Source of the DNA: Gymnopus androsaceus JB14
Lineage: Eukaryota; Basidiomycota; Agaricomycetes; Agaricales; Omphalotaceae
Assembly: GCA_009733575.1 (NCBI GenBank)
Contig: ML769404.1
Span: 186,001-250,000 of the forward strand
Reading direction: 5' to 3'
Length of the DNA stretch: 64,000 nt
In this document: positions 17,384 to 59,739 of the stretch, piece after piece
How positions within the stretch are numbered: the first letter of the stretch is position 1
Layout of the letters: each line of letters begins with the position of its first letter
Notes under the pieces: model-generated
What the model saw: the letters and a program-made list of their open reading frames with translations, nothing else
Told to the model about the DNA's origin: nothing
The model's database searches: none
Position numbers and translations under genes: made by a program

Positions 17384-19493
17384 TCATCGAGGAGGGCTGG
17401 GTGACTTTTCTGCCTTGTCACTGCCTTTTCCGAATTTCAGCTTTCCCAAGGAATTGCTGGGCTGATGATGCACTCGAGGACGTGAAGGACGGACGCCACA
17501 ATCTCTTGGAGCCTCGTCACCACACTTGACATGGGCCCTAGGAACAAAAAGCATGTCAGTATGTAACAAGAAGAAATTTAGCAAGCTATACGAACTTGAG
17601 CCCACAATCATCACATTCTAGAATAGGTTTCCAAGGCCCAAACCTCTTGGAGCAGATATCGCATTTAGTGGCAAGCGACCCACTTGAAAAGAACAGTTCG
17701 AATGGGTTCCATCCAATGAGTGGTTCTGCAGCGGGAGCATTCGTGGGCGTCTCGGACCCCTTCTTCGTGGGCTTTGCTCCAGGTTTGAGAATCGAGAAAC
17801 GATGGACCAGAGGACTCGTGTAATTCCCGTGCAATGATTTGATCGTCGATCCACCTTCTGTAGCCATTGTGCTGGAGATTATGCTCGAACCAGCAGCGGT
17901 ATGGTAAGAATCGAGCGAATCAATTGAGAGGATGGAAGAGTGACCGAGAAGATCTGAGCCATTTTCAGGATGCTCTGCCATGATCGTGGAGGGAGCTGGG
18001 GAGTGATCCGAAGGAGGCAAGACTTGATTGGGTGTTGCATTGGGGTCAGGGGAACCACGAATAGTGAGGATCGACGACAGCGAAGGTGGCTGAGTGCTGT
18101 TGCTAGCATGAGTAGGATGAGCGCGAATAACAGTGGTGCTGTATTCTGAGAAGGCTGAATCATTTCCGTTAAGCAAAGGTTCCTTTCCTGTGAAGATATT
18201 CAGATCCGATTAGGGCAAAAAAGAGGGATTGGAATTACCATCGGGTGCTTCCGTCCAGTCACTGTTAATCCCAACACTCGAAAGGCCTTGCACGGCTTCC
18301 ATGAGCTCGTCGTCGTCATCACTGTCATCCGTGGTCGACCCGCTGCCTCTAATATCCTTTCCGACTCCCATACCGAAGCTAGGAATCCTAAGCTGAGGAC
18401 CTGGACGTTTAGGACCCGTCATGAATTTGATACTTCCTACATTGACATCGTCTCCCTCATTAGGACGAGAGAGAACTTCCGCCTCGATAAAACGAAGTCT
18501 CTCAAGGATCTGGCGAGTTGTTGGACGAGCTGCAGGATCTGTAGCACAGCATTCAAGGCAGAGAGATATCAAGTCAGGAGGACATCCAGGACTGGCAAGC
18601 TTGCGGACCTCGTCTGCGTCGATAGAAAAGAAAGGTGCTGCTCGCTTGAAGTGATGGTCATCCGCAAGTCGACGAGCAGCAATCTCGCAGAGAATGATAC
18701 CGAAAGAGAATATGTCGGTAGGAAGGTCGAACTCGTCGCCAAGGAGAATTTCGGGAGACATGTACGAATCGGTACCGCAGAACGTGAGACGCTTCGACTC
18801 ATCTTCACTGCGAGCAGCGATACGAGCGAAGCCGAAATCGGTGATCTTTAGACGACCATTGGCGGTGACCAATAAATTTTCGCCCTTGAGATCACGATGA
18901 ATGCATTTCCGAGCATGCAGATAAGCAAGGGCCCGAGCGATATCGGTGGCGAAAGAGAGTCGAAGACGCCAGGGAAACGGTTTGTTTTTGTCGTGAATAT
19001 AATAACGAAGGTTTCCGTTCTCGATGAATTCGGAGACGATGAAGATGCGATTATCTGGTTCAGGCGCACGAGAGAGACCTAGAAAGAGGACAATGTTTGG
19101 ATGCCTGGATTCCTTCATGAGGCGCCATTCACGCTCAAAGTACTTTGCCACATCGTATTCATTCGATGGTACAACTTCCTTGATAGCGACTTCGATTCCA
19201 AGGTAGGTTCCTGATAATTGGGTTAGAAAATAGTGGGCGAGTCGAATAGAGCTTATTACCCTTGTAGACCTTGCCAAATGAACCAGATCCGAGAGTTTTC
19301 CAGTCGCCTTTGATATCCTAAGCGACAATAAATACCAGCAAAAGCGAGAAGAGCAGTTGAGACTGACCTCGTAGGGGATTACATCGAATGCATCGGAATG
19401 CATCGCAGAGATCTTGGGTGGTTTCTGAGGGTGTACGATGACAGAAGAAGGGAGAATGGAAGATGACTTTAGCCTGTGCCGCACGTGCGACAT
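17384..19493 (-). CDS. TKL-like protein kinase with C-terminal C1 zinc domain
   Basis: Ser/Thr-type kinase for signalling; pathway unknown. The start is ATG 19493 (MSHVRHRLKSSSILPSS). Exons join to DIKGDWKTLGSGSFGKVYKG (P-loop), then GIEVAIKEVV (ATP lysine), CIHRDLKGENLLV (catalytic loop), ITDFGFARIAARSED (DFG), FCGTDSYMSPEIL and PTDIFSFGIILCEIAARRL, ending with an RPTTRQILERL helix. A Ser/Thr-rich linker containing a DDSDDDDE acidic patch follows. The C-terminus holds C-x2-C-x12-C-x2-C-x4-H-x2-C-x7-C (CDICSKRFGPW, CDDCGLKAHVKC), a phorbol-ester/C1-like zinc fold. The last intron uses donor GTTCGT, which gives the intact C1 pattern. Stop at 17386-17384. All catalytic residues are present. Databases often label such fungal kinases LIMK- or MAPKKK-like; I cannot tell which applies. 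Confidence 0.9.
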
Positions 19494-19689
19494 TGCAAAT
19501 ATCATGACGCGGCTGTGCGCTGTTCTGCGACCAACTTGGCTAACTACAGTGCTTTTATACACTGCTGGCTTGCGCAATTAAAGCCACATAATGGCCCGCA
19601 AGTGGATTTGTGGCCTTTGTCTGATTAATTAATTGCCACAAATTCAAGGACCATCAAGCATCCAAGAAACAGGCTCTCTTGGACTTTGA
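19494..19689. promoter_or_regulatory. Kinase upstream region
   Basis: Short region between the kinase start and the first tandem unit. No specific motif recognised. Confidence 0.3.
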
Positions 19690-25621: not shown

Positions 25622-27699
25622 ATGACTGATATTCTCAAGTCATACACCGATTTGTCCTCTTCTACGCCGCGCTTTCAGGTGTCAACCGTCTTGCAGTCCA
25701 TTATAAATGGTAAAATTGACATTACAAACAATTTGAGACCGCATTAAATCCATTTTCCAATACTTAGAGGAATTCTTTGATCAAACTACCAGAGCCGCGC
25801 TAATTAGACTGCTTTTGAAGGATTTGAAGTCGTCGAAATCGAGGCTATTGCATAAAGGTACGTGTGCCAATCTGGTCTGGCGGCGCAAAGCGTAAATCTG
25901 ATTGTGGTGATCGTTTCCTATAGATGCGCATATGGCGCTGCTTTGCGTGAAGACGTTGGGAAGGATTGCTGCAGGCTCTCAGCCACTGACTGAAGCCTCC
26001 AATATCTCTATACTATTGGAACTTTCATCTTCCCTCTTTAAGGAAGACAAGAACGCGTCTTCCGAAGCTTTGAAATGCGTGGCAAATACCTTATTGCTGT
26101 ACGATCATGCCAGGATAACTTTCATCTCCAAGGAAGTTGGCGGAGGAGAGTTTTGTGCAACGATGCTCGAGGTGAGTAGTCCTTGAGTCGGTTGTCCGAT
26201 GTGATATGCTAAATTAAAGTGTGCAGAAAGCAACTACGCCAGATCAAATATTCACTCTTTCTCGAATTTTATTTCTCTCAACTGCTTCGTCTTCCTCTCT
26301 GATTGTCTCTTTGGTTGAAGACAAACGTCGCGGCCGGACCATAGTTGATGTAATCACCATGAAAATGGATATGATGCTGGCCAGCTTGTTAGCAAACAAG
26401 AGTCTCGCGAGCGAGGCTATGACCGAACTATTGAAATTTACGTTCAATATTTTGCTACATTATCCTAAGGTTTGCTTATGTGGTCATACCAGTAACACTG
26501 TTCTCCTCATACTGCTTCCCAGCTGCGTCGTCTCGCGTCCAAGGGGAACCTAGAATTCCAGGGTCCTGAACTTGATGGGTACGCATCGCAGACACTTGAT
26601 AATATGTTTACTCACTCGCACTCTGAGCAGTCTTCTCCCATCTATGCTTCGCGTCTATCAGTCTCTTCCGCCAACATTCCCTCTCCCCTTGGTTTCTCCT
26701 CTCACACATGTCATCCATTCTCTCGTTACTATACCCGTTACACCTTCTTTACGCACTCTCTGGTTTTCTTCAATACGTAGCACTAGTGCCACCAGCGGTA
26801 CATCCGCTCACCAAACATACACGCCATCCAATACCTCCCGAAGCTCAATTCCACCGAAATCACGCACGTTAGACCGTGCACTGCAGGTTATTGCTGCCGG
26901 ACGCCGATCCTTCTCCATCTCCTCCAACTCGGCTGCATCTATGTTCGGGATTTCCTACCACGATGTCGTACTCCGCACCCTAGACCTTCTCGAAATCACG
27001 TTCTCCTACCATTTTCCTTCAAATTCGAACCCTGACTCGCGTGAAGTTCGGGAGGCGTTCAAAAGGGACTTGGTTGGGTCGGGAATGTCTGCGGATACCA
27101 CTCTTGATGAGCTTTTGTCTCCATTGGTGGTTTTGTGCGCCCGAGTATGTACAATGGACAGTACTTCCCGCCTCCGTGTGAGGGAATGGATCGTCCCGGC
27201 CGATCTAGACCGCACACATCCATTGGATCAGAGGGACGACTTTTTGGGCAGATCCGTTCGACTGCTTAGAAGCGTCTATCATATCAGGTTGAAGGCTACT
27301 ATTGGAGAATTGCTTTACACTGTTTGTGATTCCGATCGTGAGTGTTTCTGCTTTTCCTTACATCGAATACTGACCAACTTTATTGAACTAGCTTCGATCC
27401 TCTCAAGTCTCGTTGGCTACGGCAACGTCGCCGGCTTCTTATTCAACAAGGGAATAATGTCTGCACCTCCGCCACCTTCAACTGACCCCCGTTCCGCGCG
27501 GCGTGTCGTCAATCCTATTACAGGAACTTATGACACAGGACCACAGGACATTGTTGAGGAGATGACGGAGGAAGAGAAAGAAATGGAAATGGATAAGCTG
27601 TTCGTCCTGTTTGACAGGCTTGAACGTTCTGGGGCGCCGCCTCCGAATCAGAGAAAAGTTGCTCAACCGAGAACGAAACCTCAACACACGTCTAATTGA
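25622..27699 (+). CDS. RIC8: Ric8/synembryn, G-alpha chaperone and exchange factor
   Basis: Cytosolic armadillo-repeat protein that folds and activates heterotrimeric G-alpha subunits, in the pheromone/nutrient signalling pathway. It starts at ATG 25622 (MTDILKSYTDLSSSTPRFQV). Six short introns join in frame, including a 52-nt one at 26580-26631 with a clear TTACTCAC branch site. Visible family blocks are ALLCVKTLGRIAAGSQPLTE, ALKCVANTLLLYDHARITF, IFTLSRILFLSTASSSSL, LLPSMLRVYQSLPPTFPLPL, VGYGNVAGFLFNKGIMSAPP, NPITGTYDTG, and MTEEEKEMEMDKLFVLFDRL with ERSG. It ends at TGA 27699. No frame break is needed anywhere. The 3' end converges on the lysine aminomutase gene. Confidence 0.93.
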
Positions 27700-35160: not shown

Positions 35161-37476
35161 TCAAGTCTTGCCCAAGAACGAGATCAATGCAAACCTGGGC
35201 GGTAATGGATCGTCAACAACCTCATAGGGAATGACCGAACGTAATGCGCGACATACTTTCCATTGACCCTCCATTTTGGATCCTTTGCTTCAGTCTTCTT
35301 CAGAACCTCCTCGTCTAATCCCACAGCAACATCTGCCTTGTTGGTCCGCAAGCTTAACAGAGGGAACGACCCTGCTAGAGGACCTGCCATAGGATGCGCA
35401 TCAGTATCTACACTTGAAAATGGTAGTAGGTACGATCTAACCCAGGGCTTCGTCGAATGGTGTCAAAGGAGGCCATTGGATATCACCAGTTAGTCTAGCA
35501 AAGCATTAGTTGGACATAACTTCGGGGCAAGGGACTTACTTTCGATAGCTGAATGTACGCCATGGTTATGATCAATATGCTTCCAACCGCATATTAACGT
35601 ACAGAGACCTACTTCAGATCACCCTAAGCCAACGCGTTAGATCTAGGGATAGGATAGTAGAAGGACAAATTACCTTCAGTACAACAAGATCGCTATCCTT
35701 CAGAGAGTCCCATAGTTTTGGATCGTATGTTTTCATGTCCCAGTATGGAACAGGCGTTGTCCAAAATCCCGCCAGTGATTCTAGTGCTGAACCTCCCCCT
35801 AGAGGAGTCTCAATCGGAACTGAAAGTGAAAAGACGCCTTCCGTGACATATCGCTTCAAGCGACCCGCGAGTTGCTGAAGATGCTGCTGCTGATCGGCGG
35901 AGGGAGGTGGTGAAGTGGTGGAAGACAGGAACGAAGGATCCAAGAGCGACTTGATGGTTTCCTCAAAGTCGGGAGGGGTCACGTCGGAGACGAACCACGG
36001 GATGAGTTTGGGGCTGATGGTTATTTCATGAGAAGTCATCAAAGCGAGGAAGCGAAAGAAAGGCCTCACTGGAAAACCACTTTGGAGACATAGGGCGTGT
36101 AAGTGACGAGGAAATCGGCGAACACGAGATCAGTAAACAGCTGTGGTTGAATTGAGCGGTGTTGAATTTCGATGAAAAGATATTCGGTAATTACCTCAAA
36201 GCCGGCTGATGGTAAAAGCATTAGTTAGACGCATTTCAATGAACTGTACTAGTAGAGCTTGCCATTATCCAAGACAAAATCCACTCTGCCGTCTTTGATT
36301 GTTGATATATGCTTCCAAGCCTTTTCCTGATCATCTCGCATGATAAATTCTTTCCGAGCTGCTTGCATATCCTTTCCTACGGATTGGAGTTTCTCGATAT
36401 CAACAAGAGACATATGAGTAAGAAGAGACAAGTCCTGAACAATAGCATTTTAGTATACTGATGTCAAAGAAAGGATATCGGCCTACAGTTGCGTTTCCCC
36501 TAAAGGGCTCATAAACACGGGGGTTAGAATGCTAGTATACATCAAGCACGTACCATAGACACATCTGTATCATCTCCTGAAAGAAGACCTTCAGCTTTTC
36601 CGGGTCTGATTCCAAAACGCTCCTCTCGGCCTCTAGTTCGTGCATTATAGTTGCGATGCCTTTGGATTACGGTGACAGATAGGTTAGTGTTGGAGCATGT
36701 CCCAAAACGCTTGATTACCATATATTGAGGTCCCCGATTTTGTAAAAACGTCCAATTTCTGGGAATGGAAAGGATCAAAGTTTCGCCAATGGGTAGATTG
36801 AGCAAAGTAGCTTCGTAAAAGACGATAGCTGAAAGATTATGAATTAGATACCCGCGCGTAGAATCCGAGTATGCGATGCATACAGATAACATCTATGGGA
36901 TCAAAGGTTAGTCGCGAGAATAGGATGGGCTTGGAATAAAGATTTCGCACTCTGCGTATAGCCATGGCGCCTTAAACCACGTATTTCGTGATGATTTAGC
37001 GAGTGCTTCTAGTTCAGTATTGTAAAAGTCTGCGTGTAGTTCACCGTCCGCAGGAATAGGTCTATGTTTATTGACAAGGTCAGTTTTGGAAAGCTGAAAG
37101 GATTCAGAACGCACTCCATAACATGGTCTCGAGCCATATCATATTTAAGCTTGCTGATTTTCTCAATGATAGCTTTTCCTTCGGTGATCTTGTTCTCTAG
37201 AGCTTGCTTCTGTGCATGATCTTCTTGAGCTTGTACATGGAAGGTATGGTTTTCCCGATGAAGCTGATCGACGATTCCCGCGAGAATTACTGGCCATCGT
37301 TTTACGACCGTTTCATAGCTGTAGATGCTTTAGAGCAAGCTTCGCATCGGCGATGAGTTGAGTGACGTACGAGAACCTGCAATTAATGAGCACTAAATGA
37401 CACACAAAAAGCCCAGCTCTCACCCTAGTTCATCGGTAGGATCATACGGTGGGAAGGGAGCCTGAAACAATACCAT
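35161..37476 (-). CDS. ARMT1: ARMT1/DUF89 damage-control phosphatase, microexon-rich
   Basis: Metal-dependent phosphatase of DUF89 subfamily III (yeast YMR027W, human ARMT1), acting on phosphometabolites such as fructose-1-phosphate. It starts at ATG 37476 (MVLFQAPFPPYDPTDELG) and ends at TGA 35163-35161. Motifs are rebuilt only when six tiny exons are included: 37371-37376 (6 nt, the FS of GFSYETVVKRWP), 36884-36892 (9 nt, the CYL of WLYAECYLYR), 36487-36499 (13 nt, WGNATDLSLL), 36195-36205 (11 nt, DNAGFELFTDL), 35613-35623 (11 nt) and 35540-35548 (9 nt), the last two giving KGDLNYRKLTGD. DNAGFE and GDLNYRK carry the metal and active-site residues. Flanking introns are 45-64 nt. The intron at 36206-36262 is GC-AG (donor GCAAGC). 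All junction phases agree. A 142-bp spacer separates it from a divergent gene. Confidence 0.92.
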
Positions 37477-44789: not shown

Positions 44790-46510
44790 ATGCCCGCACT
44801 CCGCACGCGCGATACCCAATCCCGACGTGAGTAGTTCTTCAATCTGAGCATAGACATCAAAGAATAATGTTCTGTTTCCTCCTTCTCCTCCTTTAGCACT
44901 CGAAGTGACGACGGACGCGCCCCAACCTCCCACTTTGACGATAATTTCACCGACGCCACGCGCTTTCACCTTCCCTAACTCCCATAACCTCTCGCGGGAC
45001 AGTCCTTACTCTACTCCGTCTAGTTCCCCGTTTGAGCCCGACCTCAATTCATTCGCTATCTCTTCCTCTTCATCATGTACAACACCACCTCCGCTAATGC
45101 GTACTCTTTCTCCCGCCTCGTCTTTTACATCTGTATCACCTTCCCCTACATCGAGCTCGAACAACTCTCATCTGCGCGGCGACGTTGAACGTCGGCCAAA
45201 GAAGGGCGATGAGGATTACATCAAGCGACCGGAGAACGCGTTCATTCTTTTCCGGCGCAAATGCTGCGAGGAGCGTCAGGCGGCGGAGGAGGAATCCTCA
45301 ATCGGCGGTCTGACGAAGAAGCAGCGTCAAGCAGATCTGTCCAAAACTATCAGTCAGCAGTGGAAGTCGCTGACGCCGGAAGAGAGGAAATATTGGGAGG
45401 AGATGGCCAAAGAGAAGAAGAAGGAGCACGCACAACTGTATCCTGGATACGTCTACCGCCCTCAGCGTGTGCGCGATAAGGACGGGAAGGCGAGGAACAA
45501 GAAACGTAAGGGGAGTAAGGTAGAGACGATGATGATGCCTGAGGTTGGTCCTCCCATGGAAAGTGTGTCGTTCGTCATTGCTTCCTCTCGCCAACACGGT
45601 CGCTCTGCTTCTGCTCCGACGCCTCCTCCTAACTCATATCAATCCATCCAAATCCCCAATCTCTATTCTTCAAGCCCATCGTGCCCCACGTCTCCTTCTC
45701 TACTGCCTATGATCAGCAGACGGGTTATGCATAACGGTAACCCGGAGGATGTTATGTCAAATTTCGATTTCATGCCCAACAACGAGCATGTAATGGCCCC
45801 TGCCTTCGGCCACGAGCAGCCTAATCTTCATGTGAGTTTTGTTTTGGTACTGGGGGGATGAATGCTTGCTCATCTATGAATTGAAGTCTTCCCAATTCCT
45901 ACGAAATATATTCAACATGACATCCAACGAAGCACCACTTACCGTCTCCACCGACACCTCCCTGCTCCTTCCTGCGCATCAGATTGTTTCGCCAGCGTCG
46001 TCGATAGATACGAACTCGTCTGGACCTTCATCCCCAGCTACCGGACCTTTTACTCCAACTCATCCCACACACCCCCATTCAGCCTTCGATCTGAATGGCA
46101 TTCCCAACAACGCCTGTTTGTCCGATTCGCAGATGCAAGCGGAACTCGATATGCATATGCAAATGTCACCAGCCTTCGACTTTTCGGGGTACTCCTGGCC
46201 TGTCTGGCAGGATGAGTCGAGCACGGGGATGCTGAATAACGATTTTGACCTCAACTCGATCCCTTCGCTCGAGATTGGCGGTCCAAAGTACGTTGACGAG
46301 ACTAGCAACTACGTGGCGTCTCCTGAAGCTCTGGGAATGAGCGAGTATGCCCATGAGTACCAGCAAGAGTATCCCAACGAGTACATTGCCGAATACCAAG
46401 AGTATGTTCCCCTGGGACACAATCAGTATCTTGAAGGTCAACAGAGCACCGAGTCGAGCTTACTTGGCTTCGACAATATGACGGGCTCTCCGGCGGAGCA
46501 AAGCTTCTAA
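44790..46510 (+). CDS. HMG-box transcription factor (MATA_HMG type)
   Basis: Sequence-specific nuclear DNA-binding protein. Three exons (44790-44826, 44897-45831, 45887-46510) sum to 1596 nt, or 531 residues, in frame. A Ser/Pro/Thr-rich N-terminus precedes the HMG box at about residues 118-195. The box begins DYIKRPENAFILFRRKCCEE, continues QADLSKTISQQWKSLTPEER and KYWEEMAKEKKKEHAQLYPG, and ends in YVYRPQR with a basic KARNKKRKG extension. The C-terminal half is Ser/Pro- then Gln/Tyr/Glu-rich (EYQQEYPNEYIAEYQEY) and may activate transcription. Such factors include mating-type and fruiting regulators in mushrooms (Ste11/Prf1/Pcc1-like). Without synteny I cannot assign one. No homeodomain or pheromone-receptor gene is in this window, so it is not evidently a mating-type locus. 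Confidence 0.9.
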
Positions 46511-53420: not shown

Positions 53421-54977
53421 ATGTCATCCGACTCCATGGACATTCTTCGAAGTACGGCCTTTAGTTTCCCGGCTATCGACAACCATGCACATCCCCTGCT
53501 CAATTCTCAGTCTCGAGACAAGGTTCCGTTCGAAGCTATTCTTTCAGAAGCCTCGGGCGAAGTGGCATTAAAGAAAGATGCTACACAGACTCTAGCCTGT
53601 TATCGAGCAGCGGAACAGCTGGCTGAAATTCTCGAAATCGAGAAGAATCAAGATGACCTTTGGCAAAAATTGAAAGAAAAACGGGATTCTATCGAGTATG
53701 AAGAGCTGTGCGAGATGTTCATGAAGCGTTGTGGAATACAAAGCATTCTCTTAGATGACGGTCTTGGTGGCGTATCAGAATGGGCAGAAGACTGGAAATG
53801 GCATAGAAGATTTGGATGTACTACCAAAAGGATAGTGAGGGTTGAGATTGAAGCAGAGGTAGAAGTCTAGGTCCTAGGCTAGCTTCCTTGTTCTAATCGT
53901 TCCATTCAGAAATTGTTACTTCCATTGCTTCAACCTCTGCTGGACATCGAAGATCGTTCCACTCTACCATCCGCAGAGTCTTACAAGCGACTACTATCCA
54001 CCCTTGTGAAATTTTTTGGTCAACTCAGCACTTCTTTGACCAACAGTGCGCTTGATCCTGAAGTTGTAGCATTTAAAAGTATTGCATGCTATCGGGGTGG
54101 GCTAAACATTCGAACTCGATCAGCCCTATCGATATCCATAACAGATTCTGAGCAGAGCAACATGCATGGCGTTGTGGAGAGTCTGTTGCAGGTTCTTTGG
54201 CAATTCAAGGATAAGGGAATCATCCGTATTGCACACGGTGTGATTAACGAATGGATCATTCATTGGGCTCTCCGTGTGGCAGGAGAATGTGGCATTCCCG
54301 GTAAGCCAGACTACATTCTCGCCTCAACTCAGACGGTGACGAGTTCCAAAGTGCAATTCCACACTGGTCTCGGTGACTCTGATATTCCTCTGGTGCATGC
54401 ATCTCCTGCATACATGCAACCTTTGATTGAAGATTACCCTCAAACCATTTTCATCCTATTGCATGCTGCATATCCTTTCACAAAAGAGGCAGGCTATCTA
54501 TGCTCGGTTTACCCAAATGTAATGCTAGATTTCGGTGAGGTATGTTAATCCAATACTAGGAATAATCCCTTCCACATTTGTATTCGCTTTGAAGATCTTC
54601 CCAATGGTTTCGGGGTCAGGCCAAAGAGCTGCTCTCCGTGAAGTTTTGGAGCTATGTCCTACAAACAAGATCCTCTGGTCGAGTGGGTTTAGAAGCTCGA
54701 TTTTTGTATTTATGGCTAACGTTTGAATCTTGTAGCTGACGGTCACTGGCATCCCGAATCATTCTATCTTGGTACAATCCAAGCTCGACAGGCTTTATTT
54801 GACGTGGGTCATCTTCTATCTATGTACGTTTTTCGCTCACTCCATACAAAACAGGTTCTTTCCGAAATCATATCGGCTGGAGAATTAACAGAAACTCAAG
54901 CGGTAGGAATTGTTGAACGAGCGCTGTTTTGGAACGCAGAGAGGGTGTACAAGCTTGATATGATACCAAACAAGTAA
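53421..54977 (+). CDS. Amidohydrolase (FluG N-terminal-like)
   Basis: TIM-barrel metal hydrolase of the amidohydrolase-2 group, resembling the N-terminal half of fungal FluG-type proteins. It starts at ATG 53421 (MSSDSMDILRSTAFSFPAID). Five exons join in frame to TAA 54977. Metal-site motifs seen are IDNHAHPL (HxH at the first strand), VQFHTGLGDSD, FILLHAAYPFTKEAGYL, VMLDFGE, and LWSTDGHWHPESFYLG with the terminal Asp. MFMKRCGIQSILLDDGLGG and GGLNIRTR are typical of the group. The C-terminus ends VERALFWNAERVYKLDMIPN. The glutamine-synthetase domain that follows in FluG fusions is absent: the next 150 bp hold a stop and then the neighbouring gene. Substrate unknown. Confidence 0.88.
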
Positions 54978-58779: not shown

Positions 58780-59739
58780 TCAACGCGAAGAGTATTCATC
58801 TTCCTCGTCCGAATAGGGGATTACTCGGATCGCGCGATACCTCTGTCCTTTTCGCGGTAGCTGCCTCTTCTCTCCAATAGTACTTCCACTCCGACTCCCT
58901 TCATCTTCATCCGACTCGGATGGTTCAGGAGTTTGAGGAGGGATGCTTAGGATGAGTCGAAAAGCATCTTTACCGTTGAGGTAGAATCGATAAAGACGTT
59001 TTTCCCGAATGAATCCTAAAGATTCATATAGTGAGAGAGCGGCATGGTTGTCGTATTCTGTTTCCAGGACAATCTATGACGTGAAAGGTTAGATTGAACG
59101 GGGACTGGAGGGAGATGACGGAAAGGGTAAAATGTATACATTGCAACGGATCAAAACCGAGGGCTAGGAAAGAGCGTACGTGGCAACATGCAAGTTCTAC
59201 TCACCTCGTCAACACCGTCCTCCTTCATTGCTTCCATCGATCTCCGAACAAGGGCGCTGGCTATATTCAAAGCAGAAAAAAACAATAAACGAAAGACACC
59301 CATCACACGGTGAATGAGATGAAAGCGCGGATTCATTCTAGCATAAGAGATTTGTGAGGAGAAAGAAGAACGCGGAAAGTTGTACTTACCGATGCCTCTC
59401 TTTCTGAAAGCTTTGTCTACGCTCAACATTGCAATATAGCCTCGGTTGTACGTACTTCGGTGCATACTCTGCTTGCAGACTATCACGCCCACTGGGTTGG
59501 AGGACTGAGAAGAAAAGGCTAGAAATGCTAGGTGTGGCCTACATTCTTCATAGGTTTCAAGTGGATTATTTACAATAGGATGAAACTCACCATTGACACA
59601 AGAAATATCGAAAAGTGTAAATAACATAAGGCTCACTCAGCTCGCTTTGAACGAGTGCCATGACATGAGGCAGGTCCTGTTCGCCGTTATAAGCACGATA
59701 AGTTATGACATTCGCTCCAGAGCTTGGCTGAGAATCCAT
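58780..59739 (-). CDS. NAA30: NatC catalytic subunit Naa30 (Mak3)
   Basis: GNAT-fold N-terminal acetyltransferase acting co-translationally on Met-Leu/Ile/Phe/Trp starts, with Naa35 and Naa38. It starts at ATG 59739 ([20 protein letters not shown]). Exons join to [40 protein letters not shown], then [20 protein letters not shown], where RKRGIA is the acetyl-CoA (R/Q-x2-G-x-A) motif. [20 protein letters not shown] and [20 protein letters not shown] follow. The C-terminal 50 residues are an acidic/Pro/basic extension ending in EEDEYSSR at the TGA 58782-58780. All catalytic parts are present with no frame break. Confidence 0.93.

Follow-up and report, generated by a model that had tools for sequence, protein, structure and literature searches.

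How can a conserved enzyme be encoded by a gene in which six exons measure only 6-13 nt and each carries part of a signature motif, and does such a layout point to regulated splicing, to recent intron gain, to a mistaken gene model, or to ordinary splicing taken to an extreme degree? This question is raised by one locus in the window, a stretch of 64,000 nucleotides of contig ML769404.1 of Gymnopus androsaceus JB14, a member of the Omphalotaceae within the Agaricales, where a first-pass annotation made from the letters alone had proposed six microexons in a single ARMT1/DUF89 gene. Reconstruction of the spliced gene model revealed a complete gene on the minus strand (37476-35161) with 17 exons and 16 introns, in which all six microexons were recovered exact to the nucleotide (Table 1) and phases and splice sites were consistent throughout. 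The spliced coding sequence of 1440 nt is open over 479 amino acids without an internal stop, and its product equals, letter for letter, the annotated 'DUF89 domain-containing protein [Gymnopus androsaceus JB14]' (P0001 in our protein set), a model that comes from the same assembly, may be homology-guided and does not count as independent RNA evidence. Other open frames in the window gave matches to Ric8 (26554-27696, plus strand), a protein kinase (18213-19577, minus), an HMG box (44854-45858, plus), an amidohydrolase (53883-54545, plus) and a GNAT acetyltransferase (59154-59636, minus).

Introns across the gene were short, with all 16 falling between 45 and 64 nt, 15 having GT-AG ends and only intron 9 having GC-AG ends, while a CTNAY branch-like motif was seen in 12 of them. 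All six of the tiny segments are internal coding exons of ≤15 nt with spliceosomal sites, the structural mark of small microexons, and their 11 flanking introns comprise 10 of the GT-AG type and the one GC-AG intron. Mean intron length was 53.5 nt beside microexons (n=11) versus 57.6 nt elsewhere in the gene (n=5), such that introns are short, uniform and of the same length beside microexons as elsewhere, a pattern that fits recognition by intron definition. The GC-AG intron (36206-36262, minus strand) begins one base 3' of the Asp-Asn codons of DNAGFE and lies directly before the 11-nt exon 36205-36195. Separately, CTAT starts 3 of the 16 post-intron exons (37318, 36828 and 35548, minus strand), each time where the codon before a Tyr is split, a feature that could be accidental or a relic of intron origin.

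Table 1. Exons of the ARMT1/DUF89 gene in the order of transcription, with the motif residues that each microexon encodes (positions are those of the window).
Feature	Coordinates	Strand	Length (nt)	Content
Exon 1	37424..37476	-	53	Start codon at 37476; N-terminus as in P0001
Microexon 2	37371..37376	-	6	Part of G, F, part of S (FSYETVVKRWP)
Exon 3	37115..37318	-	204	
Exon 4	36951..37061	-	111	
Microexon 5	36884..36892	-	9	Part of E, C, Y, part of L (AECYLYR)
Exon 6	36719..36828	-	110	
Exon 7	36554..36659	-	106	
Microexon 8	36487..36499	-	13	Part of W, then G-N-A-T (WGNATDLS)
Exon 9	36263..36434	-	172	Ends one base past the Asp-Asn codons of DNAGFE; GC-AG intron 36262-36206 follows
Microexon 10	36195..36205	-	11	Part of A, then G-F-E (DNAGFE)
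Exon 11	36070..36140	-	71	
Exon 12	35674..36013	-	340	
Microexon 13	35613..35623	-	11	G-D-L, part of N (KGDLN)
Microexon 14	35540..35548	-	9	Part of N, Y-R, part of K (NYRK)
Exon 15	35442..35494	-	53	
Exon 16	35257..35383	-	127	
Exon 17	35161..35194	-	34	Stop codon

The product matched the family profile PF01937 with 259.1 bits against a cut-off of 25, over profile positions 1-305 of 311; it is a DUF89/ARMT1-type protein and likely a metabolite-repair enzyme. Solved relatives matched by sequence were SPCC1393.13 and SPAC806.04c of S. pombe and YMR027W of yeast (PDB 7t7n, 8tkz, 7t7k and 3pt1), all of the same family over nearly their whole length, and the two S. pombe proteins have DNAGFE and KGDLN(F/Y)RKLTGD in common with the Gymnopus product. 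D260-N261 of the product align with the LDN of 7t7n, where the 8tkz sequence has N at the position of that D; we take this Asp of the LDN motif (D260) to be the catalytic nucleophile. Naming in the family is uneven, with the DUF89/ARMT1-type proteins of S. pombe and yeast being called damage-control phosphatases and several fungal DUF89 proteins (P0014, P0015, P0060, P0082, P0151, P0152, P0175 and P0260) carrying the misleading public name 'Hairy/enhancer-of-split with YRPW motif protein 2'. One scan of viral contigs turned up no relative.

Computed skips bore out the earlier suggestion that losing any of the microexons would damage a family hallmark, as each of the six skips either removed conserved residues or shifted the frame. 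Three of the skips (those of the 6-nt exon and both 9-nt exons) preserve the reading frame, with predicted junctions reading G-YETV for microexon 2, WLYADYRLL for microexon 5 and KGDLKLTGD for microexon 14, and the other three lead to a frameshift with an early stop. One could hold, given those three in-frame skip products, that the tiny segments are not exons at all, being instead pieces of larger exons or of nested introns (stwintrons), or remnants of a decayed gene. We regard that reading as extremely improbable: most homologues have the residues in question, with identity to the consensus of 0.70-0.99 in the microexon columns, most of them align in the solved S. pombe relatives, and the spliced frame is open over its full length and equal to the annotated protein.

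Neither the number of tiny exons nor their placement looks like the outcome of chance. When 16 introns were placed randomly in 1440 nt, a mean of 2.0 internal exons of ≤13 nt arose, and six or more did so in 127 of 20000 simulations. Positions encoded by microexons had a mean column conservation of 0.934 in an alignment of 119 homologues versus 0.716 for random placement (12 of 20000 placements reached 0.934), which upholds the proposal that each microexon carries part of a conserved motif.

The age of this layout was probed through indels in protein models of relatives, such that microexons in those relatives are read from annotation errors rather than from orthologue DNA. The homologue set comprised the 142 distinct rows (P0002-P0143) of two best-120 lists, with P0001 left out, each aligned to the product; internal deletions of ≤8 aa and insertions of ≥3 aa were counted at well-occupied conserved positions, whereas gaps beyond that length, missing termini and segments that differed by substitution only were not. 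This revealed 62 counted indels, of which 43 (in 32 models) touched the six microexons and 19 lay elsewhere. In 20000 permutations restricted to conserved positions the count averaged 8.6 and never rose above 38, short of the observed 43, and in 5000 placements outside the microexons it averaged 2.5 with a maximum of 9. Deletions fell at microexon residues 33 times and elsewhere 16 times, and 10 of the 13 insertions were at microexon edges. By exon, the models with a counted indel numbered 12, 7, 5, 4, 13 and 13 for microexons 2, 5, 8, 10, 13 and 14, respectively, where microexons 13 and 14 have residue 406 in common and 11 of their 13 models are the same, and where all four events at microexon 10 are insertions at its edges. 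An earlier windowed defect test on 119 rows, since superseded by these indel counts, gave a mean of 3.3 broken rows (maximum 9) in 26 microexon windows versus 0.35 (maximum 8) in 173 non-microexon windows.

Many of these errors have the exact form that omission of a microexon would give. Exactly the two residues that microexon 2 supplies (FS; in Trametes FA) were absent from 11 of the 142 models, CYL of microexon 5 was exactly absent from five (P0013 with the predicted new D at the junction, the other four with E), and KGDLKLT, the product of skipping microexon 14, occurred in five. Together these exact skip forms of microexons 2, 5 or 14 appear in 18 distinct annotated models from 16 species and five Agaricomycete orders, among them models from Agaricales (Cyathus, together with Lentinula, Mycena and Candolleomyces, which we take to belong there), Polyporales (Somion and Fomitopsis, and presumably Trametes), Russulales (Dentipellis), Thelephorales (Thelephora) and Atheliales (Athelia). 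The opposite error was seen at microexon 10, where Amanita polypyramis P0118 has an 18-aa insertion exactly after GFE, starting with V and ending with Q, that would read as a retained 54-nt intron of the form GT...CAG; intron 10 of the Gymnopus gene, at the same place, is 54 nt long. A 16-aa insertion after GFE in Mycena chlorophos P0089 likewise runs from V to Q. In some further models (e.g., P0042, P0101 and P0117) the segments at microexon sites were replaced rather than shortened, and these were left uncounted.

Some of these homologue errors could also arise from one intron whose splice site is repeatedly misplaced. Because the errors match both edges of the Gymnopus microexons, microexons at the same sites are the simpler reading. 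Among the annotated homologue models, 32 of 129 had an indel at a microexon site, and the 97 without one (Suillus and Fomitiporia among them) fit either correct annotation or absence of the microexons. The first-pass expectation that standard gene finders would miss such exons did not hold for the Gymnopus gene itself, whose public annotation is complete, and held in part for relatives, as those 32 models illustrate. The microexons are thus probably old and, as far as protein models can tell, would predate the divergence of several Agaricomycete orders.

An origin by recent insertion of introner-like elements into the gene was weighed against this age. Closely spaced introns do exceed random placement, and introns 9 (36206-36262) and 14 (35495-35539) are alike near their putative branch sites, with a score of 27 against a 95 percent shuffle limit of 24. 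The two stretches that hold 5 of the 16 introns, however, matched only themselves in the 83-Mb genome, with no near-identical copies elsewhere in it, and the exon edges appear common to other orders, such that a recent introner origin is very improbable.

Motifs of this kind might simply attract annotation errors, and the sister family offers a control. The paralogue in the same genome (C6, 81466-83269) has seven internal exons, the smallest of 40 nt, and its motifs are uninterrupted except for an intron just before DNAGFE. Its best 120 listed homologues (98 annotated, 22 contig-only), scored by the same criteria, yielded 11 counted indels (2 deletions and 9 insertions). None of these affected any of the five corresponding motif sites, and 8 of the insertions coincided with intron positions of the C6 gene. 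This pattern implies that indels in annotated models mark real intron positions and that the motifs are not fragile as such. Long gaps spanning a motif did occur in sister models (three at the first site and one each at the second and third), a class of gap that lies outside the criteria in both families. The sister family is the more conserved one, with identities of 73-93 percent across the 120 homologues listed; none of those rows is named G. androsaceus, and as the database is clustered at 90 percent, the species' own record may sit in a relative's cluster.

Could the microexons instead form a switch, with condition-dependent inclusion or skipping that turns the enzyme on or off? The first-pass annotation had raised splicing-controlled activity, and the placement of the microexons in conserved family motifs would suit it, as would the division of the skips into three that keep the frame and three that would give early stops. 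Homologue rows derived from contigs alone bear on this. There are 13 in the set, nine with a longest contig of <2000 bases for proteins of 423-487 aa and the other four with contigs of 2332-4311 bases; because contigs below 2000 bases are too short for so intron-rich a gene, those nine are most likely cDNA. Counted microexon indels were found in 0 of the 13, all 32 broken rows being annotated models, an observation that weighs little against minor isoforms. Two contig-only rows (P0093 and P0140) are without residues at microexon 2, and in a third (P0038) the microexon-8 segment carries a substitution. No sign of splicing-controlled activity was seen in these 13 rows, and every skip costs strongly conserved residues or shifts the frame, so we consider a regulated switch unlikely.

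Taken with the exon model and the homologue pattern, these considerations make it very likely that the gene is an intron-dense one whose six microexons are ancient, are used constitutively and are handled by ordinary intron definition. All six would then probably be included in essentially every mRNA, although the degree of inclusion may differ between conditions. Introns packed in close pairs would leave internal exons of only a few nucleotides between them; the spliceosome would pair both ends of each short intron, such that exon size would hardly be limiting, and the two introns around each microexon would be removed one after the other. As the residues encoded are presumably indispensable, skipped or deleted forms would be selected against. 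The coincidence of microexons with motifs may then be one of survivorship, in that an exon this small is easily lost and would be kept only where its residues cannot be spared, which we see as the most economical reason for their position. A more adventurous thought is that the gene monitors splicing fidelity, a slip at any of the six sites disabling or truncating the enzyme so that it is active only when short introns are efficiently spliced; this is distinctly unlikely, and if it were true, the motif-by-motif placement would have been selected rather than left by survivorship.

Read in this way, the gene would be ordinary in mechanism and extreme in degree. Earlier reports contradict the first-pass notion that exons of 6-9 nt lie near the lower limit of splicing, as they describe a constitutive exon of 1 nt in Arabidopsis, for which intron definition and stepwise removal of the two introns were argued (PMC4674806), and a shortest exon of 6 bp among the P450 genes of Phanerochaete chrysosporium, nearly one third of which set contains microexons (PMC1184071). 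Those P450 genes are likewise from an Agaricomycete and likewise show frequent introns of 45-55 bp; their microexons are spread across a large duplicated family and are discussed as candidates for alternative splicing (PMC1184071), whereas those of Gymnopus sit in a conserved enzyme and show, indirectly, signs of being deeply conserved. A close likeness is to land plants, where a survey of ten species gives 2,398 microexons of ≤15 nt, and where small microexons such as the 9-nt ones in invertase (coding part of an invertase motif) and AP2 genes also encode part of a conserved motif, are conserved over large clades and are often misannotated (PMC8831610). The plant cases were proven with RNA-seq, whereas the Gymnopus gene, with its six in one 1.44-kb coding sequence between introns of 45-64 nt, is modelled from DNA and annotation. 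Among fungi, reports describe a microexon inside a functional domain in the Xlr2 switch of Trichoderma virens (PMC11121469) and several microexons in one gene family in Tuber nank (PMC4986451), both resembling the Gymnopus gene in these respects and differing in being alternatively spliced, where we infer constitutive use. Among the literature matches listed, none concerned microexons in the DUF89/ARMT1 gene family or surveyed Agaricomycete microexons. What seems new here is the depth to which the layout is probably conserved, together with the extent of misannotation in homologues, both judged from indirect evidence.

With its six exons of 6-13 nt inside a gene of 2.3 kb, the locus offers a compact natural test case for how intron definition copes with exons too small to be recognised on their own, and for whether the flanking introns leave in a fixed order. 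It also carries a warning for annotation, as at least 32 of 129 homologue models are hit at these sites, leaving conserved enzyme motifs corrupted in many publicly available fungal models, and other intron-dense genes may be similarly misannotated.
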